From Saprospiraceae bacterium (GTDB taxonomy: Bacteria; Bacteroidota; Bacteroidia; Chitinophagales; Saprospiraceae), in NCBI GenBank assembly GCA_016787285.1, contig JAEUUV010000048.1, forward strand, positions 1 to 32,762: a stretch of 32,762 nt of DNA, in the 5' to 3' direction. The notes beneath the pieces are model-generated. The model saw only the letters and a program-made list of their open reading frames with translations. It was not told the DNA's origin and searched no databases. Below, piece after piece: positions 6,086 to 29,539 of the stretch; position 1 is the first letter of the stretch, and each line of letters starts with the position of its first letter. A program made the translations under genes and the position numbers.

Positions 6086-6712
6086 ATGAAACTCGAAGTA
6101 TATAACATTAAAGGTGAAGCCACGGGCCGCTCGGTTGAGCTCCCCGACGAGGTGTTCGGCATCGAACCGCACGAACACAGCGTTTGGCTCGACGTGAAGC
6201 GCTACCTCAATGCGCAGCGTCAAGGCACCCACAAGTCCAAGGAGCGCAGCGAAATGAGCGGCTCCACGCGCAAACTCCACCGCCAGAAAGGCACGGGTGG
6301 TTCGCGTAAGGGCGACATCAACAACCCCCTGTACCGGGGCGGTGGCCGCGTGTTCGGCCCGCGTCCGCGCAATTACGACATTCAGGTAAACGCCAAGGAA
6401 AAGCGCCTCGCTCGCCGCAGCGCTCTCTCCGCCAAGGCGCTGGCCGGAAATATCGTGGTTATCGAAGATTTCTCCTTCGACCAACCCAAAACCAAAGCCT
6501 TTCAGGCAATCCTTCAGGCGCTGAAAGTGGCCGACAAAAAGCCGCTCACCGTGCTCGGCGATTACGACAAGACCCTGTACCTGTCTTGCCGCAACATTGA
6601 GAAAGCCGATATCGCTCCGGCCCAAGACCTGAACACCTACCGAATCATGCGTGCGGGCGCCCTCGTGGTATCCGAAAGCGCTATTGCAAAAATTAAAGAA
6701 GTCTGCGAATAA
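6086..6712 (+). CDS. rplD: 50S ribosomal protein L4
   Basis: L4 (208 residues) lines the constriction of the exit tunnel with its long loop, visible here as the basic, glycine-rich stretch around KLHRQKGTGGSRKGD and RGGGRVFGPRPRNY. The C-terminal globular part (KPLTVLGDYD and the following residues) is also typical. In E. coli L4 represses its own operon through the S10 leader; whether that happens here cannot be told from sequence. It ends two bases before rplW. Confidence 0.98.
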   Translation: MKLEVYNIKGEATGRSVELPDEVFGIEPHEHSVWLDVKRYLNAQRQGTHKSKERSEMSGSTRKLHRQKGTGGSRKGDINNPLYRGGGRVFGPRPRNYDIQVNAKEKRLARRSALSAKALAGNIVVIEDFSFDQPKTKAFQAILQALKVADKKPLTVLGDYDKTLYLSCRNIEKADIAPAQDLNTYRIMRAGALVVSESAIAKIKEVCE

Positions 6713-6714
6713 TC

Positions 6715-7011
6715 ATGGCCAAGCAAATCTTGATCAAGCCGCTCATCACGGAAAAAGCGACCAAACTCGCGGACAAGCGCAATACGTACGTCTTCGTGGT
6801 GAACAAAGACTCGAATAAAATCGAGATCAAAAACGCGATCGAAAAACTGTACAACGTCAGCGTAGACAGCGTGAACACGGCAATTATGCCGGGCAAACCA
6901 AAGTCGCGCAACACCAAGTCAACGGTTGTCCGCGGTGTGAAGGCTTCCTACAAAAAAGCCTTTGTAACCCTCACGCCGGGTGAAACCATCAACATTTTTG
7001 GAGAAGAATAA
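6715..7011 (+). CDS. rplW: 50S ribosomal protein L23
   Basis: A 98-residue exit-tunnel protein that docks trigger factor and SRP. The start MAKQILIKPLITEKATKLA and the core IEIKNAIEKLYNVSVDSVNT are typical, and the length is normal. It starts two bases after rplD and ends nine bases before rplB, so translation is probably coupled. Confidence 0.98.
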   Translation: MAKQILIKPLITEKATKLADKRNTYVFVVNKDSNKIEIKNAIEKLYNVSVDSVNTAIMPGKPKSRNTKSTVVRGVKASYKKAFVTLTPGETINIFGEE

Positions 7012-7893: not shown

Positions 7894-7927
7894 CAAAACT
7901 CAAAACTCAAAACTCAAAACTCAAAAC
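7894..7927 (+). repeat. heptamer tandem array (CAAAACT)4.9 before rpsS
   Basis: Four perfect CAAAACT units and most of a fifth, ending five bases before the rpsS ATG. The coding strand of the array has no G, so the mRNA leader should be unstructured unless it pairs with a TTTTGAG copy. A single GTTTTGAAT lies just after the rplB stop (about 7872-7880). Confidence 0.93.
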
Positions 7928-7932
7928 AAGGT

Positions 7933-8199
7933 ATGCCTCGTTCGCTTAAAAAAGGCCCGTACGTGCACCACGCTTTGATGGACAAAGTCGCGAAGGCCAA
8001 GCAGAGCAACAAACGTCAGGTGATCAAAACATGGAGCCGCGCTTCCATGATTATCCCGGACATGGTTGGCGAAACAATCGCCGTGCATAACGGCAAAACG
8101 TTCATCCCGATTCTTGTCACCGAAAACATGGTCGGCCACAAACTCGGCGAGTTTGCGCCTACGCGCAACTTCCGTGGCCACGCCGGAAACAGAAAATAA
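7933..8199 (+). CDS. rpsS: 30S ribosomal protein S19
   Basis: An 88-residue head protein that binds 16S rRNA together with S13. [15 protein letters not shown] at the start and the [18 protein letters not shown] ending are standard. Its translation start is immediately preceded by the heptamer array and not by a Shine-Dalgarno sequence. Confidence 0.98.
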
Positions 8200-8292: not shown

Positions 8293-8658
8293 ATGGAAGC
8301 AGTAGCAAAATTGCGCAATTGCCCAATGTCGCCGCGTAAGATGCGCCTCGTCGTGGACAATATCCGCGGCAAACGCGTGGTGGATGCCCTGAGCATCCTG
8401 CGGTACACCAACAAGGAATCCGCCGTCTGGCTGGAAAAACTCCTCCTCTCCGCAGTGAACAACTGGGAACAGAAAACGGAAATGGACGGTGGCGCAGACG
8501 ACTACGATCTGTATGTCAAAACCGCCTTCGTAGATCCGGGGAGCATTATCTACCGCTTCTTGCCGGCGCCGCAAGGCCGCGCGTACCGCGTGCGTAAACG
8601 CCGGAATCACGTAACACTGGTTGTTGCAAACCGTATTAAACTCGAAGACGAAGAATAA
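8293..8658 (+). CDS. rplV: 50S ribosomal protein L22
   Basis: L22 (121 residues) contacts all 23S domains and puts a beta-hairpin into the exit tunnel. CPMSPRKMRLVVDNIRGK is the family start and the hairpin region ends in RAYRVRKRRNHVTLVV. The start is set by the ATG directly after the 14-bp repeat array. Length is normal. Confidence 0.97.
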   Translation: MEAVAKLRNCPMSPRKMRLVVDNIRGKRVVDALSILRYTNKESAVWLEKLLLSAVNNWEQKTEMDGGADDYDLYVKTAFVDPGSIIYRFLPAPQGRAYRVRKRRNHVTLVVANRIKLEDEE

Positions 8659-12448: not shown

Positions 12449-12462
12449 GCCCAACACGGAAT

Positions 12463-12494
12463 CACTCAATCACTCAATCACTCAATCGCTCAAT
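12463..12494 (+). repeat. 8-bp tandem repeat (CACTCAAT)4 before rpsH
   Basis: Three perfect CACTCAAT units and a fourth with one change (CGCTCAAT), ending three bases before the rpsH ATG. A lone copy of the same unit lies at 8684-8691 before rpsC, so the 8-mer is shared between two leaders of the operon. Confidence 0.92.
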
Positions 12495-12497
12495 AGA

Positions 12498-12908
12498 ATG
12501 CACGTCACCGATCCGATAGCAGATTATTTGACCCGCATCCGCAATGCTCAGATGGCGGGCCATCGCATCGTTGAAATTCCGGCCTCCAAGCTGAAAAAGC
12601 GCATGACCGAAATCCTGTACGACCAAGGCTATATTCTCAAATATGCCTTTGAAGACGACAGTGCGACATACAAACAAGGCGTTATCAAAATCGCCCTGAA
12701 ATACGACCCCGTCTCCAAGCAACCCGTCATCCGGGAGCTGGTACGCGTAAGCCGTCCGGGCCTGCGCAAGTTCTCCGGAGCCGGCAGCATCCCCCGCGTC
12801 ATCAACGGACTGGGAATCATGATCGTCTCCACGTCCAAAGGCGTGATGACGGACAAACAAGCGCGCGAGCACAACGTCGGTGGCGAACTGCTCTGCTACG
12901 TCTGCTAA
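12498..12908 (+). CDS. rpsH: 30S ribosomal protein S8
   Basis: A 136-residue primary binder of the 16S central domain. [18 protein letters not shown] at the start and [25 protein letters not shown] at the end are family hallmarks. S8 represses the spc operon at rplE mRNA in E. coli; I see no clear mimic of that site here. The start codon is fixed by the preceding repeat array. Confidence 0.98.
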
Positions 12909-17823: not shown

Positions 17824-17830
17824 CATTCAG

Positions 17831-17900
17831 TTTTGAGTGTTGAGTGTCGAGTTTTGAGTTACAACTCAAATCCCACTCAAAACTCAAAACCCAAAACTCA
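17831..17900 (+). repeat. paired TTTTGAG / CTCAAAA arrays between rpmJ and rpsM
   Basis: The left part (17831-17860) holds degenerate TTTTGAG units; the right part (17863-17900) holds degenerate CTCAAAA units, ending ten bases before the rpsM ATG. The halves are complementary and can fold into a long imperfect hairpin in the mRNA. The piece ACTCAAAACTCAAAACCCA here is identical in the rplQ leader. Confidence 0.88.
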
Positions 17901-17910
17901 TAATTCAATT

Positions 17911-18288
17911 ATGGCACGTATTGCAGGTGTGGACTTGCCACGGAACAAAAGAGGGGTCATAGGTTTGACCTACATCTACGGTATCGGCCCGTCGAGCGCC
18001 GAAAATATCCTGTCTAAAGCAGGTATTGATCTCAGCACAAAGGTGGATCAGTGGACGGATGACAATATTAAAACCATCTCCCGAATCATCGCCGATGAGT
18101 ATAAAACGGAAGGCCAGCTTCGCTCGGAAGTCCAGCTTAGCATCAAACGTTTGATGGACATCGGTTGCTACCGGGGGCTGCGCCACCGCAAAGGTTTGCC
18201 TTTGCGTGGCCAACGCACCCGTACCAATGCACGTACCCGCAAGGGCAAGCGCAAAACGGTGGCCAACAAGAAAAAAGCAACGAAATAA
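17911..18288 (+). CDS. rpsM: 30S ribosomal protein S13
   Basis: A 125-residue head protein that contacts the P-site tRNA and 50S bridges. [26 protein letters not shown] and [30 protein letters not shown] are classical. The reading frame is open back to 17833 but that part is the repeat hairpin, so ATG 17911 is the start. It opens the alpha part of the operon. Confidence 0.98.
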
Positions 18289-18387
18289 CACCGGCCCCTT
18301 GGGGTGTCGGCTGGGGCAAACTCGGGCTATTCCCGCTTGTTTCCGCACGGCAACGGACAACAAACAATACTTTTACCTTACGATAAA

Positions 18388-18780
18388 ATGGCAAAAGGAG
18401 CAGCAAAAAAAGTTGTTAAGCGTAAAGTCAAGATCACGCCGGAAGGAATCGTGTACATCCAGTCCAGCTTCAACAACATCATTATCTCCATTACGAACAA
18501 GCAAGGCGAAGTGGTTTCCTGGTCTTCTGCAGGTAAATCCGGCTTCCGCGGATCGAAAAAGAACACCCCGTATGCCGCTCAGGTGTCGGCAAATGACGCC
18601 GCCAAAACGGCATTCGAGGCTGGTATCCGTTCCGTAGAGGTGTTTGTGAAAGGGCCTGGTTCGGGTCGCGAAGCCGCTATCCGGGCAATTGACCAATCCG
18701 GCATCAAGGTAATGGTTATCAATGACGTAACACCACTCCCACACAACGGTTGCCGCCCGCCCAAACGCCGTCGCGTGTGA
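18388..18780 (+). CDS. rpsK: 30S ribosomal protein S11
   Basis: S11 (130 residues) lies on the platform near the mRNA exit. Signatures are [34 protein letters not shown] and the C-terminal [16 protein letters not shown], whose Asn-Gly is a known isoaspartate site in E. coli. The upstream frame extends to 18304 but that part does not match the family; ATG 18388 follows the A-rich ACGATAAA. Confidence 0.98.
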
Positions 18781-18851
18781 TGGGCGTTTGTGTTTTACGC
18801 ACGTGCTTCTACGTTGATTTTTCAAAATTGCATTGACCACATTTTCATACA

Positions 18852-19466
18852 ATGGCTCGTTATACTGGACCAACCACTAAAAAATCCCGTTCGTTCGGCG
18901 AATCGATTTTTGGGTACGATAAATACTTTGAACGGCGCAAATACCCGCCCGGCCAGCATGGACAATCGAAAAAACGGAAAACCAAATCCGACTACTCGAC
19001 CCAGTTGTCCGAAAAGCAAAAAGCCAAGTACACCTACGGTGTGCTGGAACGCCAGTTCCGTCGTACATTCCACAATGCTACCCGCCGACACGGCGTAACA
19101 GGTGAAGTGTTGCTTCAACTACTCGAAGCACGTCTGGACAACACGGTTTTCCGTTTGGGTATATCCCCTACCCGTCGCGGCGCCCGGCAATTGGTCGGCC
19201 ACCGCCACATTACGGTCAACGGCAAAGTGGTCAATATCCCGTCCTACTCCCTCAAACCCGGCGACATTGTAGCGGTACGCTCCAAGTCGAAAAACATGGA
19301 AGTCGTCTCCATGCACGCCGGATCGAAAACCAATGACGTACGCAAGTTCGGCTGGTTGGAATGGAACCCCGACAAAATGCAAGGTACCTTCCTGGCTTAC
19401 CCGCAACGGGATCAGATCCCGGAGAAAATCAACGAACAGTTGATTGTCGAACTTTACTCGAAATAG
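18852..19466 (+). CDS. rpsD: 30S ribosomal protein S4
   Basis: S4 (204 residues) nucleates assembly of the 30S body and in E. coli represses its own operon. [17 protein letters not shown], the [17 protein letters not shown] helix and the S4 RNA-binding domain ([27 protein letters not shown] and the following residues) are all present. No zinc cysteines near the N-terminus, so it is the zinc-free class. rpoA follows after 17 bases. Confidence 0.98.
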
Positions 19467-19483
19467 TACTAGCAACCACATAT

Positions 19484-20482
19484 ATGAGTATACTCAATTT
19501 CCAGAAACCCGACAAAATCCTGCTCCAGAAAGCCACCGATTTCGAGGGCACTTTCGAATTCAAACCCCTCGAGCCCGGATTTGGTCAAACTATCGGCAAC
19601 TCGCTACGCCGTGTGCTGCTTTCCTCTCTGGAAGGCCATGCAATCAGCGCCGTGCGTATTGGTGGTGTGGATCACGAGTTTGCCACCATCCGCGGCGTTG
19701 TGGAAGATGTGGTGGACATTGTGCTCAACCTCAAACAAGTGCGCCTGAAGCCTGTTGTTCAGGACGATAAAGGCCAGCCCGAAAAAATATACCTGACCTT
19801 CAGCGGACGTGAAGAATTCCGCGCAGGTGACATCGAAGAGTTCACCAACGTGTTCAAGGTGATGAATTCCGACCTGCTCATCTGCCGCATGGAACCCGCC
19901 GTCACGCTCGAACTTGAACTCACCATCTCCAAGGGCCGCGGCTACCAGCCCGCCGACGACGGCGCCCCCAAGGATGCGGTGATCGGTGTTATTCCGATTG
20001 ATGCGATTTACACCCCCATCAAAAACGTGTCCTACAAAGTGGAAAACACCCGCGTGGGCCAACGTACCGACTACGAAAAACTGACCATTGACGTTAAAAC
20101 CGACGGTACCATCCACCCGGAAGAAGCCATCCGCGAAGCCAGCCGTATCCTGATCCAGCACCTGATGCTGATCACCGACGATAACATCACCTTCGACACG
20201 CCGGCCAGCCGGGAAGAAAATGTGGTGGACGAGCATATCCTGCACATGCGCAAATTGCTCAAAACCTCACTTGAAGACCTTGACCTCAGCGTGCGTGCCT
20301 ACAACTGCCTCAAAGCAGCCAAAATCAACACGCTTGCCGAATTGGTCAAATACGACACCCATGAACTCCTCAAGTTCCGTAACTTCGGCAAAAAGTCGCT
20401 CGTAGAAATTGAAGAACTTTTGCAGGACAAGGGCTTGACCTTCGGCATGGATCTGGCCAAGTACAAATTGGAAGAAGAGTAA
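19484..20482 (+). CDS. rpoA: RNA polymerase alpha subunit
   Basis: The 332-residue alpha subunit starts polymerase assembly and contacts upstream DNA and activators. The N-terminal dimerisation domain (FKPLEPGFGQTIGNSLRRVLLSSL, GVVEDVVDIVLNLK) is followed by a linker and the C-terminal helix-hairpin-helix domain (SVRAYNCLKAAKINTLAELV, RNFGKKSLVEIEELL). The frame is open further upstream into rpsD, but MSILNFQKPDKI is the family start. A TTTTGAG array begins five bases after the stop. Confidence 0.98.
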   Translation: MSILNFQKPDKILLQKATDFEGTFEFKPLEPGFGQTIGNSLRRVLLSSLEGHAISAVRIGGVDHEFATIRGVVEDVVDIVLNLKQVRLKPVVQDDKGQPEKIYLTFSGREEFRAGDIEEFTNVFKVMNSDLLICRMEPAVTLELELTISKGRGYQPADDGAPKDAVIGVIPIDAIYTPIKNVSYKVENTRVGQRTDYEKLTIDVKTDGTIHPEEAIREASRILIQHLMLITDDNITFDTPASREENVVDEHILHMRKLLKTSLEDLDLSVRAYNCLKAAKINTLAELVKYDTHELLKFRNFGKKSLVEIEELLQDKGLTFGMDLAKYKLEEE

Positions 20483-20486
20483 TTCA

Positions 20487-20556
20487 GTTTTGAGTTTTGA
20501 GTTTTGAGTTTTGAGTTTTGAGTTTTGAGTTGCGAGTTTTGAGTTTTGAGTTGCGA
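20487..20556 (+). repeat. heptamer tandem array (GTTTTGA)n after rpoA
   Basis: Six perfect GTTTTGA units (20487-20528), then variants including two GTTGCGA, over about 70 bp starting just after the rpoA stop. It is the complement of the CTCAAAA arrays, and one of those stands 100 bp further on before rplQ. Confidence 0.94.
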
Positions 20557-20654
20557 AATGCAAGACTTGGGCTTTGCTGAATTTTCTGATTGTTTATACG
20601 CACCATTTTTTCACAAGTGTAGTAACCGTTGAGCGTCGGCATTTCGAGTGGGTT

Positions 20655-20686
20655 AACTCAAAACTCAAAACCCACAACTCAAAACT
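20655..20686 (+). repeat. CTCAAAA array upstream of rplQ
   Basis: Four degenerate CTCAAAA units, ending 43 bases before the rplQ start. Complementary to 20487-20556, so the rpoA-rplQ spacer (247 nt) can form a stem of roughly 30 bp with a loop near 100 nt. Confidence 0.88.
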
Positions 20687-20729
20687 GTCCGACCGCCCCG
20701 GTGCTGCCACCAGCATTTAGGTACCTATC

Positions 20730-23132: not shown

Positions 23133-23330
23133 GGTTGCTAAAATTTATAAATTCTGATCGCCTACTCTTAACCGGATTTTCGGCTTTCTCCGGTCGCTAG
23201 GGAAATTTTGCTCCCCCGAACGACAGGGCAAAAGTGTCCACCTCTTGAGTGATTTTTCCCGTCAAGTTTGTAGCATTTTCCATCAAAATGAAGACGAAAA
23301 GGGCAAAAAGGGCTGAAAAAGTCGCGTCAC

Positions 23331-26114
23331 CTACACCTCCGAGGGCAACTTTCCGAACCGCTGCCGGAATGCCCGCGAAAACGAACGGGCATCGTCGTAG
23401 CCTACCCGGGTGGCTGTTTGCGCGACCGACATGCCGCCCTGTTCTTCCAGCAGGCGGCGGGCTTCCGTCAGGCGCACGTCAAGCAGGTACTGTACCGGCG
23501 ACAAGCCCGTCAGGCGTTTCAACTGGCGAAGTAAGGTTGATTCGCTCATCGCGAATTCAGTTGCAATGCCTGATACGCTCAGCGTATTGTTGGCAATATG
23601 ATTCCGGACATATTGTTCAAACCGCACCAGCCATTCCTGATCAGAATGTGGTAAAGGTTTGGTAATTGCCTCTGTTCCCGATGCGGCGGCAGTGGCTTCC
23701 TCCCGGCGGATTGCCTGATTGCTCAATAAATTTTTGATGCGCACCAACAGTTCCTCCTCGTCGAAGGGCTTATGCAGGTAGTCGTCCACGCCGATGCGCA
23801 GCGCCTTCAGTTTGTCCTGTGCCTCTGCCCGGGCAGTGAGCATGACGACCGGGATGTGTCGCGTGGCATCATCAGATTTGAGTTTTTCGAGCAACTGATA
23901 GCCGTCCATGACGGGCATCATAAGGTCGGAGAGAATGAGGTCGGGGAATGATGAATGAGGCGTGAGGAGTGATGAATTGGCTGCAACTTGTTTGGTATTC
24001 ATTTTTCTGCATTCAGCGTTCATCATTAAATCCAGCGCTGCCTGTCCGTTTTCAGCGGTAATGATCCGGTATTTTTCCTCCAAAACAGACCGGATATAGT
24101 CCTGAAGTGCGAGGTTGTCCTCCACAACGAGGATGGTGGGTTTTTCTTCCCCCCCGGTATGGCCGGAAACTGATTTTCCCGGCAAGGCCGGGGTTTCGCT
24201 GATCAAGTCATCCTGAAGTATTGGTGAAACCGGAGTTTTTACAGCCTCAGTTGCCGGGGCAACCGGAAATGCCACCCGAAAAATGGAGCCTTTCCCCACG
24301 GTACTTTCCACTTCGATGGTACCCCCAAACAGTTTGGTATACTCCCGGCAAAGCGCCAGTCCGATGCCTGTGCCACCTTCGGCGGGTTTTTCAGGGCGAG
24401 TAGTTTGAAAATAGCGGTCGAACAGGTGCGGCACGTCGTCGGGATGGATGCCGGGCCCGTTGTCGGCTACGTGCAAGTGCAGCATAGCGCTTTTGAGCGA
24501 TACGGTCGTTTCGATGCGACCGCCTGCAGGTGTGAACTTGAAGGCATTGGCAAGCAGGTTGAACAGAATTTGGCGGAATTTTTCCTGATCAAGCAGTATT
24601 GGCGGTGTGTTGTCCGGGGGCAAATGAACAGAAAAGCCGATATTCTTGCGCTCTGCCATAGACTCAAACTGGGTCGTATAGGTGCCGATGAAAGCAGGCA
24701 ACTCGGTCGGCTTCAGGTATATTTCCAGTCGGCCCTGTTCCAGTTTGCGCAAATCGAGGATATCGTTGACGAGTTGCTCCAGTTGCTTGCCGCTTTGGCG
24801 CGCCATCTGCAGCATACGCGCTTGTTTGTCTGTCAGTTGCCCTTTTTGCAGCAGGGTTTGTATAGGGCCGAGCAGCAGGGTAAGCGGCGTACGTAGCTCA
24901 TGTGAGACATTGGCGAAAAAGCGGGACTTGGCCGCATCGAGGGATTTCAGTTGGTCGGCTTGCTCGCGGGTTTTTCGATTGGCTTGCTGCAGACGGACAT
25001 AGTTATAGGCGAGTACAATCGAAACCAGCAGGAGTATGGCGAGCAGCAGGGTTACGAGCCGGCTTTGTTTTTTTTGGGTCTCAATTTGCCTGCCTTGCTC
25101 CTCAATTTGCCAATTTTTTTTCAAATCGGTGTATCGGGCATCTGCAGCCGCTATTTTTTCATAATTCAGGGCCTCGAGGTAAGCCAGTTGCATCTCAAAG
25201 CCTTTTTGGATGTAGTGCAGTGCCGTCGGGCGACGCAAGGTGCGATAAATTTCACCCCGGAGTTTGTAGGTGCCGGCAAGCAGATACAGATGGTCTTTTC
25301 CTCCGGCTTGCATCGCTTTTGCTGCTGTCTTGAACGTGGAATCGGTGTAGGCCAGCGCTTCCAGGGGACGGTTTTGCCCAAAATGCAGGTTCGCTATGTT
25401 CTGGAAAGTCCCGCACATTGCGGAGTAATTCCCTGCCTTGCGGTACCGCTGTATGGCTGCGTGGAAATGCGCCAGCCGGGCAGGGTAGTCCCGCAGGGTA
25501 AGGCCTAAAAGCAAGTGCCCCTCGCCTTCCTCGAATGCCTGCCCAAACTTCGGTGCGGTGCGCAGCACTTCCCGGGCATAATACGCCGAAGAGTCCCTGT
25601 TGCCGAACATCCGGTGCCACGACGAAATCCGGACGGCAAAGCCGGGGTAGAGCGTGTCCAGCCCATGTGCCAAAATAGCACGCTGTGCCAAATGTAACTG
25701 GATGATGCTCTGTTCGGGGCGGTTGATTTCTTCATACAGGGTAGCCAGCACGCGGCAGGCTTCAGCATATATGTCCCATGCTTTTTTAGCCTCACTCAAG
25801 CGCTGAACGCGCAACAGCGTCTGGAGTGTGGTACTGTCCCGGTGTTTTTGCTCCAGCGCCGAAGCAAAAACTAATTGCGCCCGGAGACCCAACGGCGAGT
25901 CGGTTTGGCCGAGCGGACGCAAGTGGTACAGCAGTTTTTCCGAGAGGAGAAGGGCGCTGTCCAACTGGCCGGCAGACAGGTACGTTGTCGCGCGTTCGAG
26001 GTCGGTCAACCGGTCGGCATCCGGTTGTGCCTGAAGATGCCCGACACTCCAAACCCAAAAACAAACGAGGACAACTGCCCGTTGGAATAGTCCTTTCGTA
26101 GCCAAAGCATACAT
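23331..26114 (-). CDS. TPR-type hybrid sensor kinase / response regulator with AraC output domain
   Basis: A single-chain two-component system of 927 residues. Order: signal peptide (1-28), TPR-like helical repeats outside the membrane (about 30-340), one membrane helix (about 352-373), HisKA with His405 in FANVSHELRTP, ATPase domain (DNGPGI and GGTGIGLAL), receiver with phospho-acceptor Asp730 (LSDLMMP), and a C-terminal AraC/XylS pair of helix-turn-helices ending at GKLPSEV. The frame is open upstream to 26279, but that part overlaps the lectin gene; ATG 26114 gives a proper signal peptide and sits right after a promoter box. Between the second helix and third strand of the receiver there are about 25 residues (699-723) foreign to the fold. 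The neighbouring lectins are obvious candidate partners or targets. Confidence 0.93.
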   Translation of the reverse strand: MYALATKGLFQRAVVLVCFWVWSVGHLQAQPDADRLTDLERATTYLSAGQLDSALLLSEKLLYHLRPLGQTDSPLGLRAQLVFASALEQKHRDSTTLQTLLRVQRLSEAKKAWDIYAEACRVLATLYEEINRPEQSIIQLHLAQRAILAHGLDTLYPGFAVRISSWHRMFGNRDSSAYYAREVLRTAPKFGQAFEEGEGHLLLGLTLRDYPARLAHFHAAIQRYRKAGNYSAMCGTFQNIANLHFGQNRPLEALAYTDSTFKTAAKAMQAGGKDHLYLLAGTYKLRGEIYRTLRRPTALHYIQKGFEMQLAYLEALNYEKIAAADARYTDLKKNWQIEEQGRQIETQKKQSRLVTLLLAILLLVSIVLAYNYVRLQQANRKTREQADQLKSLDAAKSRFFANVSHELRTPLTLLLGPIQTLLQKGQLTDKQARMLQMARQSGKQLEQLVNDILDLRKLEQGRLEIYLKPTELPAFIGTYTTQFESMAERKNIGFSVHLPPDNTPPILLDQEKFRQILFNLLANAFKFTPAGGRIETTVSLKSAMLHLHVADNGPGIHPDDVPHLFDRYFQTTRPEKPAEGGTGIGLALCREYTKLFGGTIEVESTVGKGSIFRVAFPVAPATEAVKTPVSPILQDDLISETPALPGKSVSGHTGGEEKPTILVVEDNLALQDYIRSVLEEKYRIITAENGQAALDLMMNAECRKMNTKQVAANSSLLTPHSSFPDLILSDLMMPVMDGYQLLEKLKSDDATRHIPVVMLTARAEAQDKLKALRIGVDDYLHKPFDEEELLVRIKNLLSNQAIRREEATAAASGTEAITKPLPHSDQEWLVRFEQYVRNHIANNTLSVSGIATEFAMSESTLLRQLKRLTGLSPVQYLLDVRLTEARRLLEEQGGMSVAQTATRVGYDDARSFSRAFRQRFGKLPSEV
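23946..24020 (-). repeat. repeat-like in-frame insertion in the receiver domain
   Basis: This 75-bp stretch encodes residues 699-723 of the hybrid kinase, between LDLMM and PDLILSD. It contains direct copies of ATTCATCA and other short A/T/C words (ATTCATCACTCC, CATTCATCATTC on the coding strand), looking like the A/C/T-rich intergenic repeats elsewhere in the window. The frame is maintained. Confidence 0.55.
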
Positions 26115-26884: not shown

Positions 26885-26889
26885 CATCA

Positions 26890-26938
26890 CTCGAAACTCG
26901 AAACTCAAAACTCAAAACTCAAAACTCAAAACTTAAAA
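26890..26938. repeat. heptamer array overlapping the end of the DUF5686 gene
   Basis: Seven units on the plus strand: CTCGAAA twice, CTCAAAA four times, CTTAAAA once. On the minus, coding, strand this reads TTTTGAG and includes the last codon and the TAA stop at 26933-26935. Same family and same 3'-of-gene polarity as the array after rpoA. Confidence 0.92.
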
Positions 26939-29539
26939 CTCCAACTGTACCCTTGCCCGAATACCCCACTCGGCCACGTTGGGGTGGTTGAGGTAACTGA
27001 GGCGGCGTACATAGTCCACACGGAAGATTTTGAAAATATTGCCGATGCCTACGCTGGCCTCCATGTAGGGTTTGCGCTCCAGCGTGTAGGTGAGCGGCAC
27101 TCCGTTGGGGTCGGTGGGGAAGTGCAGCAGGCCGTTTTCCGCCGTAGGGCGGTTGCTGTCGTCAAGGCCGCCCCAAAGGGCTTTGAAGGTGAGCATTTCG
27201 CGCCATTTCAGGCGGTTAAACAGCGGGATGCGGTTGAAAAAGAACCCGCCGAGGTTGTAGTTCACCGTGACGGCGGCGTATTTGTCGCTGACGAATTCGA
27301 GGAAGTTCATCAGGTTGTACGACTCCGGTTGGTAGGAGTACGTTTGGTTGGCGCGGTGCATGGTGAGCAGCGGGAACGGCACGGTTCCAAAAGTACGCCC
27401 GCCTTCCAGCACCACCTGCGCCCAGCCCAACGGTGCGGTAAAAAAGTACTTGGAGGCTTTCAGTTGCACCACATTGTACGTGTACTGGCCCTGAAGCAGG
27501 TTTTTGTCGCCGTGGGTGTAGTACAGGTTGAAGATGGGGTAGCGGTTGATGATGGGCCGGCGGTAGTTGGCGCCCTGGTAAAACTTCTCGTTGGGTGCAA
27601 AGCGCAGGTGTACGCCGAATTCGGTCGTGCGGATGTCGGGCAGCACGTCGGGCTGTTCCGGGTTTCCATAGTGGAAACGCAAGGCGCCCGCCGGTTCCTG
27701 AATCTGGTTTTTGAACGAAAACGTGTACGACAGGCCCGATTGGCTTTCCTTGATGTACTCGGCGCCGATCACCTGTTTGTAAATCATCTTGTCGTTCACG
27801 CCGCGCTTGAAGGAGAGGAAAAAGTTGTCTTCCTGCACAAACTGGAGGGACTGGCCGGGTATCTGGGCCTCGTCGTGGAACCACAGGCGCACTTGATTGA
27901 TCGGGTATTTGCGCACCTGGTTGTCGCCGAACGAATACGTGGCGCCGAAGTAGGTTTTCCAGCGCTCGTCCTTGAAACCGTAGGCCGCATATCCTTCCAG
28001 CAGCAGGTTTTTGGAGAAACGGGCGTTCGTGCGACCGCCGAGTCGCGCCCTAAAACCTTCCACCTCGTTGAAACTGTAGAATGTGTTGACCGGCCCGATT
28101 TCCACGCCGCCGATGTCGTGGTAACCCTCGAAAAAGATGCGGGCCACCATCAAAAAGCGTTTGAAAGGGACGTGGTTGTTCAGGGTGTCAATAGTGTGGC
28201 GAATGCCTTGCTCCCGGGCGTTGAGCGATACATGCCGGTTTTCCACCCAGAATTTTTCGGAGAACTGGGCGGGGTTGTCCACGTAAAATACGTTGCTCGG
28301 GAATCCAAAGTACTGGTCGGGCAGTGGCTGGTTGAGCGTGTAGTTCCGGTACGAACTGCTCTTTCGACCGACCAGGCCGCGCATGGTGGAGTCGCGTTTG
28401 AACCCGAAATGCATGACTACTTCGTCCTGCACCAGCATCAGCCGGCGCGTGGTGCCGATGACGGAGTCGGTGCTTTCCGTCCAGTCAAATTCCTGATGCA
28501 CGATCATGCCGCCCACCCAGTTGATGTTGGCTTCCTTGGGTACCGTCAATTCCACTTTGCGCACGGCATACGTGCCGTCGAGTGCGATCCAGAGACTGCC
28601 CTCGAAAGCCCGGTCGCCCCGGGAGCGCGGCGCAAAGTACAGGCGCACCACCTGTGCGTCGCGCAGGCGGGTGGTATCCTGGATGTAAAAGCGGTAGATA
28701 TTGGGTGCTATCGGCGCCAGGGGGCTGACAAACTCCGACGCGGCAATGTTGATCACGTTGTCGTAGATGTCCACGTCCTGGTACAGGTTCTGGACGTACC
28801 CGGCAATACCGTCTTCATCAATGAAGGCAGGTACGGGCGTGTTTTGCTCGCCCTTGACGAAGAACTTTTCGGCGCTCGGGTTTTTGCGGTAGTACACGTC
28901 GGCGAGGCGTTCGTACAGGTAGAAGGGCAGGCTGACGACGCCGTTCGCGCTGGTATCGGCGTTGTCGAATACGAACTTCAGGTTGCGGAACAGGATGTTG
29001 TTGCGCATCTTGTCGTCCACGTTGTTCAGCGAAAACTCCGCCTTGTCGTACTGCTCAAAACTGTAGAAGTCCAGCCCCTCGCGGCGGTTGCGTGCTTTGT
29101 TTTCGATGACGTTGCGGATCAGTTCTACTGCCGGGTTGTCTTTGTTGCGGTATTTTTCATTGCGGATGACAACCTCTTTTAGCGTCTGCGAGCCTTCCTG
29201 CATACGCACCACCAGGTTGGTGTTGGCCTGGCCGGATTTGAGGTCAACAAACATAGGCTGATAGCCTACGTATGTGATTTTCAGACGCTTGGCAGGCTCT
29301 TTGATTTCGAGGCTGAACCGGCCTTCGACATCGGTGCGGGTTCCGATCGTTTTGTCTTCAAATTGAACGGTAGAGTAGGGGAGTGCCTCGCCGGTGGCGG
29401 CATCAACCACCATGCCCGAAGCGCTGGTGGCGGTTTGCGCGACGGAGTATCGGGCATTAAGCAGGAAGGCGCCGAAAAGGACGGGAAGGACGATTCGTTG
29501 AAGGAACGGCAAGCAAGAGGTTTTCACAATTTTGGACAT
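26933..29539 (-). CDS. outer-membrane protein, CarboxypepD_reg-like plus DUF5686
   Basis: An 868-residue exported protein. A signal peptide ends around AQ34-35. A carboxypeptidase-regulatory-like domain (about 36-115: ASGMVVDAATGEALPYSTVQFEDK and the following GT..DVEGRF), as found before TonB-dependent barrels, is followed by the long region typical of DUF5686 and by many amphipathic beta strands ending in aromatic RVQLEF, suggesting an outer-membrane barrel. There is no plug domain, so it is not a normal TonB receptor. Substrate is unknown. The last codon and stop come from a heptamer array. A CACCTTTG near-box at 29610-29617 (minus) is about 70 bases upstream. Confidence 0.9.
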   Translation of the reverse strand: MSKIVKTSCLPFLQRIVLPVLFGAFLLNARYSVAQTATSASGMVVDAATGEALPYSTVQFEDKTIGTRTDVEGRFSLEIKEPAKRLKITYVGYQPMFVDLKSGQANTNLVVRMQEGSQTLKEVVIRNEKYRNKDNPAVELIRNVIENKARNRREGLDFYSFEQYDKAEFSLNNVDDKMRNNILFRNLKFVFDNADTSANGVVSLPFYLYERLADVYYRKNPSAEKFFVKGEQNTPVPAFIDEDGIAGYVQNLYQDVDIYDNVINIAASEFVSPLAPIAPNIYRFYIQDTTRLRDAQVVRLYFAPRSRGDRAFEGSLWIALDGTYAVRKVELTVPKEANINWVGGMIVHQEFDWTESTDSVIGTTRRLMLVQDEVVMHFGFKRDSTMRGLVGRKSSSYRNYTLNQPLPDQYFGFPSNVFYVDNPAQFSEKFWVENRHVSLNAREQGIRHTIDTLNNHVPFKRFLMVARIFFEGYHDIGGVEIGPVNTFYSFNEVEGFRARLGGRTNARFSKNLLLEGYAAYGFKDERWKTYFGATYSFGDNQVRKYPINQVRLWFHDEAQIPGQSLQFVQEDNFFLSFKRGVNDKMIYKQVIGAEYIKESQSGLSYTFSFKNQIQEPAGALRFHYGNPEQPDVLPDIRTTEFGVHLRFAPNEKFYQGANYRRPIINRYPIFNLYYTHGDKNLLQGQYTYNVVQLKASKYFFTAPLGWAQVVLEGGRTFGTVPFPLLTMHRANQTYSYQPESYNLMNFLEFVSDKYAAVTVNYNLGGFFFNRIPLFNRLKWREMLTFKALWGGLDDSNRPTAENGLLHFPTDPNGVPLTYTLERKPYMEASVGIGNIFKIFRVDYVRRLSYLNHPNVAEWGIRARVQLEF

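Follow-up and report, generated by a model that had tools for sequence, protein, structure and literature searches.

Why should tandem copies of one heptamer stand at the stops and starts of genes, turned the same way each time? The question is raised by contig JAEUUV010000048.1 (positions 1 to 32,762) of the Saprospiraceae bacterium assembly GCA_016787285.1, a stretch of 32,762 nucleotides analysed at its full length and called the window here, in which six arrays of CTCAAAA or its complement TTTTGAG adjoin genes of a ribosomal operon and a DUF5686 gene. A first-pass annotation saw in them an RNA processing or stability signal between cistrons, or a system of trans-pairing between 3' ends and 5' leaders. 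Our analysis points to fast-changing repetitive DNA at gene ends and not to a conserved RNA signal. With a probability of roughly one half, we believe that the arrays are the species' own version of genus-wide, short-unit, palindrome-forming repeats, which spread and turn over at the DNA level and owe their place and orientation at gene ends to selection.

In the draft genome (G000 below; 5.56 Mb, 345 contigs) the window corresponds to contig 182. Arrays were counted in a sample of 910,627 bases (910 kb) of this genome, enriched for CTCAAAA arrays: contigs L039-L058 and L079-L096 were picked for holding arrays, L059-L078, L097 and L098 regardless. The whole sample contained 133 CTCAAAA arrays, against 0 to 12 for each of five anagrams of the unit, and 20 stretches with 74 real arrays gave none after base shuffling. 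Reading the pattern backwards is an uninformative control, as reversed CTCAAAA is a rotation of CTCAAAA. Tandem Repeats Finder ranked CTCAAAA well ahead of all other short tandem units, with 98 rows in this enriched sample against 10 for the runner-up. Two-unit overlapping matches number 201 forward and 211 reverse across G000, and extrapolation from 13 arrays in 247,623 unselected bases (twenty contig stretches) gives about 290 arrays for the genome. With a census cut-off of score at least 14, and one ACTCATC array set aside, there were 119 arrays, 91 of them in gaps between genes, 22 in called genes and 6 at ends or elsewhere. Genes came from a home-made caller with approximate start positions, and caller errors are possible among the 22 "in-gene" arrays; rpsS, rpmJ and rpsK, which it missed, were added by hand for the codon-contact count only. 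C runs stand beside CTCAAAA arrays at three contig starts (L056, L068 and L096, first 120 bases), which are probably assembly break points.

An array within 12 nt of a stop or start codon was taken as a codon contact. At stops the TTTTGAG strand runs outward from the gene in 40 contacts and the opposite way in 5; at starts the figures are 27 and 1, the proper ones lying 0-10 nt from the codon. The polarity relative to genes that the first-pass annotation had claimed is thus borne out through the 910 kb, and equal orientations, the outcome named as refuting it, were not seen in this strand count. TTTTGAG after a stop and CTCAAAA before a start follow from a single rule, since the strand read outward from the gene is TTTTGAG. 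Of the 91 gap arrays, 62 are on the expected side and 6 on the other, in each case no more than 10 nt from the gene. Five of the six wrong-way codon contacts belong to arrays that span an entire gap of 31-59 nt and so touch both genes; the sixth terminates a tandem series. Proper arrays are offset from the stop codon by -9 to +7 nt and overlap it in 18 of the 40 cases, and the stop is TAG in 12 of these 40 against 107 of 636 overall.

The start contacts might indicate a translational element, in which the A-rich, G-free CTCAAAA leader aids initiation or binds S1 or cold-shock proteins, the copy after the stop being a by-product. MacGregor proposed such a role for TAACTGA heptamers, for which a like placement is described in the accessible text (PMC4679880). 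A general poverty in G upstream of starts also agrees with it (G 0.169 and C 0.280 in the 40 nt upstream of 457 array-free starts), as does the 27 to 1 count itself. However, stop contacts (40) outnumber start contacts (27), convergent gaps carry arrays, and orthologous starts in sister species are found without the unit, which makes this explanation improbable.

The arrays also come in pairs. The 57 array gaps comprise 20 with both arms and 37 with a single arm, and the order in the two-arm gaps is TTTTGAG then CTCAAAA, at an inter-arm distance of 1 to 257 nt. The reverse order within 60 nt occurs in one gap (L055) and one called gene (L062), both with tandem series; in L055 (contig 79 of G000, 6443-6753) repeat hairpins stand in tandem between two genes with a period of 73 nt. 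Of the 91 arrays, 36 have arms of 31 or 32 nt, and the mode is 31 nt. The counts show tandem units of 7-9 nt building arms that are preferentially 31 nt long and stand singly or as inverted pairs. Among gaps of at least 25 nt in the enriched sample, arrays occur in 35 of 301 co-directional, 14 of 68 convergent and 8 of 99 divergent ones. Some gaps have different units on their two sides (L086, L087 and L095, judged by eye), so the polarity seems tied to the gene border and not only to a symmetric hairpin.

In the window, the claim that the paired arrays of the rpmJ-rpsM and rpoA-rplQ gaps are able to fold on each other was confirmed by strong predicted folds (-26.8 kcal/mol, z -6.0, and -81.6 kcal/mol, z -5.5, respectively). 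These folds favour an intercistronic RNA element, that is, a hairpin past the stop for mRNA processing, 3'-end protection or translational coupling, free in sequence as long as pairing and proximity to the stop are kept. The adjoining of stop codons agrees with such an element, and so do six of seven convergent gaps in two other species (G043 and G046) with long inverted repeats in both, even where the arms differ. Against it stand the single arm in 37 of 57 array gaps, the arms in divergent gaps and inside proteins, and the 15 of 28 genus loci that have no strong inverted repeat at rpoA-rplQ. TTTT follows within 12 nt of the hairpin in only 1 of 22 cases and the unit has only 2 of 7 bases G or C, so intrinsic terminators (a GC-rich hairpin plus a U run) are rejected. 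We regard the RNA element as possible but doubtful. Of the earlier interpretation, polarity, gene-end position and pairing ability stand, while RNA processing or stability, or 3'-to-5' trans-pairing, is not supported as the main explanation: in convergent and divergent gaps the arms are not both between the stop and start of one transcript, most array gaps are one-armed, some arrays are translated, and sister species have other units or none. Trans-pairing could besides hardly be gene-specific, as a single unit with little variation is common to the copies.

Orthologous gaps give an indication of turnover. S4 of the window is 84-87% identical to that of its nearest relatives, Saprospiraceae or Saprospirales metagenome assemblies (L129-L132; single scan). 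Counting the own genome, a three-unit CTCAAAA match is present in 3 of the 40 relatives searched and, across the class, in 6 of 395 genomes, the most in any genome but the own being 7 matches. The first-pass annotation had named a lack of arrays in close relatives, together with unchanged transcript ends, as speaking against a signal; such a lack is found for the CTCAAAA unit in most relatives searched, and not for the class of structure. At rpoA-rplQ (loci with a gap of 40-500 nt; 30 of 38 matching genomes entered as loci), 13 of 28 genus loci have an inverted repeat of score at least 14, 12 of them with periodic arms, and 15 are below that score; outside the genus strong inverted repeats occur in 1 of 13 and 2 of 35 loci. 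Nine units are used at this gap in the genus, namely TTTTGAG, AATGATG, TTAATGTGC, GAGGATTC, AGCAGGC, GAGTTAT, AGTGTTA, AAGGTTTC and ATTGGTGA. Strong inverted repeats are rarer at rpmJ-rpsM (3/24), rpsM-rpsK (3/30), rpsK-rpsD (4/23) and rpsD-rpoA (1/29).

Two pairs of species can be compared directly. Between G024 and G042, 95.7% identical over the locus, the rpsM-rpsK hairpin is identical letter for letter and the rpoA-rplQ unit is different. Of the 47 orthologous gaps compared between G043 and G046, 11 have strong inverted repeats in both species, 6 in one only and 30 in neither. Six gap pairs were scored as having replaced arms, of which only 11606 (outer arms; the centres look alike) and 18555 are clearly unrelated by eye, the arms being complementary within each species. 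Gap 5688 looks nested, with common outer arms and a replaced centre. Several hairpin centres in G043, G046 and G016 have a CGTAGAGT-like core despite differing outer arms (by eye). Different units or no array at orthologous sites of sister species point to fast-changing DNA over a conserved RNA signal. We found no pair of empty and filled sites with near-identical flanks for G000, and no description of unit replacement at orthologous gaps in the literature searched by title and abstract opening.

Other units mostly follow the outward polarity rule. Given as proper:wrong contacts, stops then starts, the G000 units were ACTCATC 5:2 and 6:1, AATCAATCG 7:3 and 5:0, CATCGCT 7:0 and 3:1, and AACCAGTC 0:0 and 2:0. 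In G022, CTCAAAA gave 6:2 and 8:0 and CATCATT 3:1 and 2:0, with CAAACTT and CACTCAT at 2:1 each at stops. In G043 and G046 together, CTCATAA gave 8:0 and 4:0, TAACTGA-like arrays 11:0 and 9:0 (a scan that shares the CTCATAA arrays) and AGGACTC 9:0 at stops. The TAACTGA-like arrays of these two species (L209-L214, L229-L240), which come close to the heptamer known from Beggiatoaceae, are oriented toward starts and reversed after stops, as for CTCAAAA. Exceptions at stops are CTCTCAC (3:4; starts 11:1), CTCACTC (0:1) and CACTACT (0:1) in G043/G046 and TAACTGA (2:1) in G006. The wrong-way counts of several units in G000, G022, G006 and G043/G046 speak against a universal polarity rule. Some scans are not independent, as AAACTCG and AACACTC overlap CTCAAAA, AACCAATC overlaps AACCAGTC, CTCATAA in G022 overlaps CTCAAAA, and the TAACTGA, AATAACC and CTCATAA scans in G043/G046 overlap mutually.

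Arrays inside proteins indicate how new copies might arrive. In an acyl-CoA synthetase (Pfam AMP-binding), a 13-residue array peptide replaces the VDELDHDMPPNQP-or-similar segment of all 7 orthologues that were aligned among those found, with length unchanged and flanks conserved. In a FolC-like Mur ligase the variable stretch is a 15-residue array peptide, somewhat shorter than in most relatives. Two further in-protein arrays sit in variable stretches where insertion and replacement are indistinguishable, and G022 seems to carry peptides of another unit in these two proteins. The sense strand is the stop-free strand in 17 of 22 called in-gene arrays. Compared with miniature inverted-repeat transposable elements and other insertion elements, which duplicate their target site and insert with no host sequence lost, the acyl-CoA synthetase case, one enzyme, is a replacement and not an insertion. 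Rickettsia palindromic elements are repeats tolerated in frame inside proteins and are much longer than the arms here; the arrays differ from them in their 31 nt and in the one case of replacement without a change of length. Taken over gaps and proteins, it is shown that the unit at a given gap varies by species and that arms stand at coding ends, often over the stop, and also in tolerant protein stretches.

The favoured reading could work as follows. New copies would arise when a short patch is written over the sequence already present or joined to it. One possible route is short-patch double illegitimate recombination, on which no paper was found. Fold-back copying, or else conversion, would keep the arms of a pair complementary. 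Where the arrays lie and how they face would be the residue of selection, with the repeat tolerated where it is least harmful. The start side would be filtered by translation, the G-poor CTCAAAA strand being tolerated in genes and over start regions because it is free of stop codons and of ATG, GTG and TTG. On the stop side, TTTTGAG would provide a fresh stop codon whatever the frame, and symmetry would account for the second arm of a pair. Intercistronic hairpins formed by pairs at the RNA level might then be a tolerated consequence rather than the reason for the arrays.

Several results weigh against this reading. No enzyme is tied to the spread of the arrays. Of the 51 arrays in gaps longer than 150 nt, 26 stand no more than 10 nt from a gene where uniform placement would give 4.2, so that border crowding is denser than an untargeted process predicts. 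The contact count of the 910 kb holds no proper arm 8-12 nt beyond a stop, and no G/C skew was found downstream of array-free stops in G000. TAACTGA-kind arrays face stops properly at 25562 and 5906 in G043 and at 174426 and 5823 in G046, although AGTTATC, the strand that they turn outward, contains no stop codon when repeated without variation; the supply of stop codons therefore cannot explain all polarity, and as its sole cause it is rejected. Replacement that preserves length is not general in intergenic gaps: of 9 gaps with low identity, 1 agreed to within 3 nt (permutation p 0.11). When inverted repeats were taken regardless of kind in 112 gaps of G000 (unselected stretches plus the window), 19 scored at least 14 against 0 after shuffling; they are less tidy, with medians of 32 and 29 nt from genes, and the left arm is richer in G than in C in 11 of them and poorer in 7.

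The border crowding and the TAACTGA-kind arrays may call for a border-seeking process or for an RNA role near codons. On a bolder reading, an active process would set out from coding borders and write over the adjoining sequence in species-specific short units, so that hairpins are renewed in a new unit from time to time while position and pairing persist. We hold this to be unlikely; if true, it would mean sequence-independent gene punctuation, kept by rewriting rather than by conservation. A telomerase-like templated end-addition, in which a broken or nicked end close to a gene border gains outward copies of the species-specific unit and is then rejoined, would cover the outward TTTTGAG polarity at both gene ends, the single arms and the mixed-unit gaps (by eye) with no extra assumptions. 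It leaves the location of breaks at codon borders unexplained, and the in-gene copies are internal, so that we think it a far-fetched possibility.

Among known systems, the cyanobacterial short tandemly repeated repetitive (STRR) sequences have degenerate heptamer units in many intergenic, lineage-specific copies. We know of no gene-end polarity or inverted pairing for them. A close published likeness concerns TAACTGA heptamer direct repeats in Beggiatoaceae, cyanobacteria and five Bacteroidetes, whose arrays, according to the accessible text, end just before starts, overlap stops in the stop-encoding orientation and are few in open reading frames (PMC4679880). On the same basis, the CTCAAAA arrays resemble them as direct repeats of period 7 that are mainly intergenic (91 of 119), are oriented toward a start codon a few nucleotides downstream, overlap stops and in some cases lie inside open reading frames. 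They differ in the unit (one TAACTGA-like array was counted in the 910 kb of G000) and, as far as that text goes, in the dependence of the unit on species, with sister species differing at one gap, in adjoining stops at least as often as starts, in the preferred arm length of 31 nt and in the inverted pairs of 20 of 57 array gaps, where one inverted repeat is reported for BOGUAY (PMC4679880).

In Geobacter metallireducens, the available part of the report describes multicopy tandem octamers (GTTGCTYN) and heptamers (MTYCTGA), paired on opposite strands at variable distance and interpreted as sites of global regulators (PMC2700814). The opposite-strand pairs of short-unit arrays are alike, while the unit CTCAAAA differs from these and the other Geobacter units, and codon abutment, gene-end polarity and replacement between relatives, all seen here, are not mentioned in that part (PMC2700814). 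The present arrays would seem to join and generalise the TAACTGA heptamers and the paired Geobacter arrays.

Repetitive extragenic palindromic (REP) elements and REPINs are intergenic palindromes in hundreds of copies that go with the REP-associated tyrosine transposase (RAYT), as far as could be seen from PMC3116915 and PMC3733652. REP/REPIN-like palindromes mobilised by a Y1 (RAYT) transposase would fit arrays that are palindromic, mostly intergenic and in hundreds of copies, and Y1_Tnp is present in 34 of 42 genus genomes. However, the arrays are heptamer-built, no Y1 gene is near them in the stretches examined, and the unit is replaced among species, which differs from what is reported in the parts of those papers that were seen. 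No CTCAAAA array was found in any of nine Y1_Tnp stretches of G000 (3-5.5 kb each), or in 16 when other species are included; several of these stretches have palindromes of their own, and G053 has a repeat-unit hairpin at rpoA-rplQ yet no Y1_Tnp match. Mobilisation of the CTCAAAA unit by RAYT is not supported and appears very unlikely. The Y1 transposase (RAYT-like) genes in L259, L264, L265, L266, L271 and L272 are flanked by their own palindromes, each different, and are candidate REP/RAYT families of the genus.

The features of the window are collected in Table 1. Pfam bore out the gene names given earlier for the neighbours of the arrays, and the reported positions after the stops of rpmJ, rpoA and the DUF5686 gene and before the starts of rpsS, rpsM and rplQ were found as described, with two refinements at the DUF5686 stop and in the rplQ leader. 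In 19 short leaders of the genus, pairs of the rplQ stem are changed on both sides, A-T/G-C at one pair and C-G, T-G and T-A at two others, and the variable apical loop carries a repeat array in three species (L099, L102 and L103, among the rpoA-rplQ gaps L099-L128). A scan of the window against Rfam at the gathering threshold gave no family at the arrays; the only match was DUF805b RNA (RF02914, 37.6 bits, 23159-23193, minus strand).

Table 1 Arrays and neighbouring features in the window, with flanking genes by Pfam
Feature	Position	Strand	Remark	Flanking gene by Pfam
(CTCAAAA)n, single arm	7894..7927	+	ends 5 nt upstream of rpsS start (7933)	S19 at 7933
(TTTTGAG)n on + strand, left arm	17829..17860	-	5 nt past rpmJ stop	L36, 17707-17823
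(CTCAAAA)n, right arm of rpmJ-rpsM gap	17875..17908	+	2 nt upstream of rpsM start; pairs with left arm	S13 at 17911
(TTTTGAG)n on + strand, left arm	20486..20552	-	3 nt past rpoA stop	RpoA to 20482
(CTCAAAA)n, right arm of rpoA-rplQ gap	20655..20686	+	in apical loop of rplQ leader, 43 nt upstream of rplQ start	L17 at 20730
(CTCAAAA)n at 3' end of minus-strand DUF5686 gene	26889..26941	+	stop codon within array (sense-strand TTTTAAG)	DUF5686 protein, 26933-29539, minus strand
Other short-unit array, 14-nt unit ACTCGTAAATCGAA	8249..8290	+	Tandem Repeats Finder; ends 2 nt before ATG at 8293	
Other short-unit array, (AATCACTC)n	12460..12494	+	Tandem Repeats Finder; ends 3 nt before ATG at 12498	
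rplQ leader kept across the genus, stem AAGYGYRGTAACYG ... CCRGTGCYRCCAC	20615..20729	+	alignment and consensus fold, 19 short genus leaders	

The accessible parts of the earlier heptamer reports cover one unit or one genome each and leave the origin of the repeats open (PMC4679880, PMC2700814). In this genus the class can be seen entire, with many units, both gene ends, inverted pairs, copies inside proteins and unit differences between sister species at one gap. What was an anecdote thereby gives way to comparative material on which ideas about the generating process can be tested. It also carries a warning: hairpins that stand in essential operons and are missing from relatives are poor ground for inferring function.

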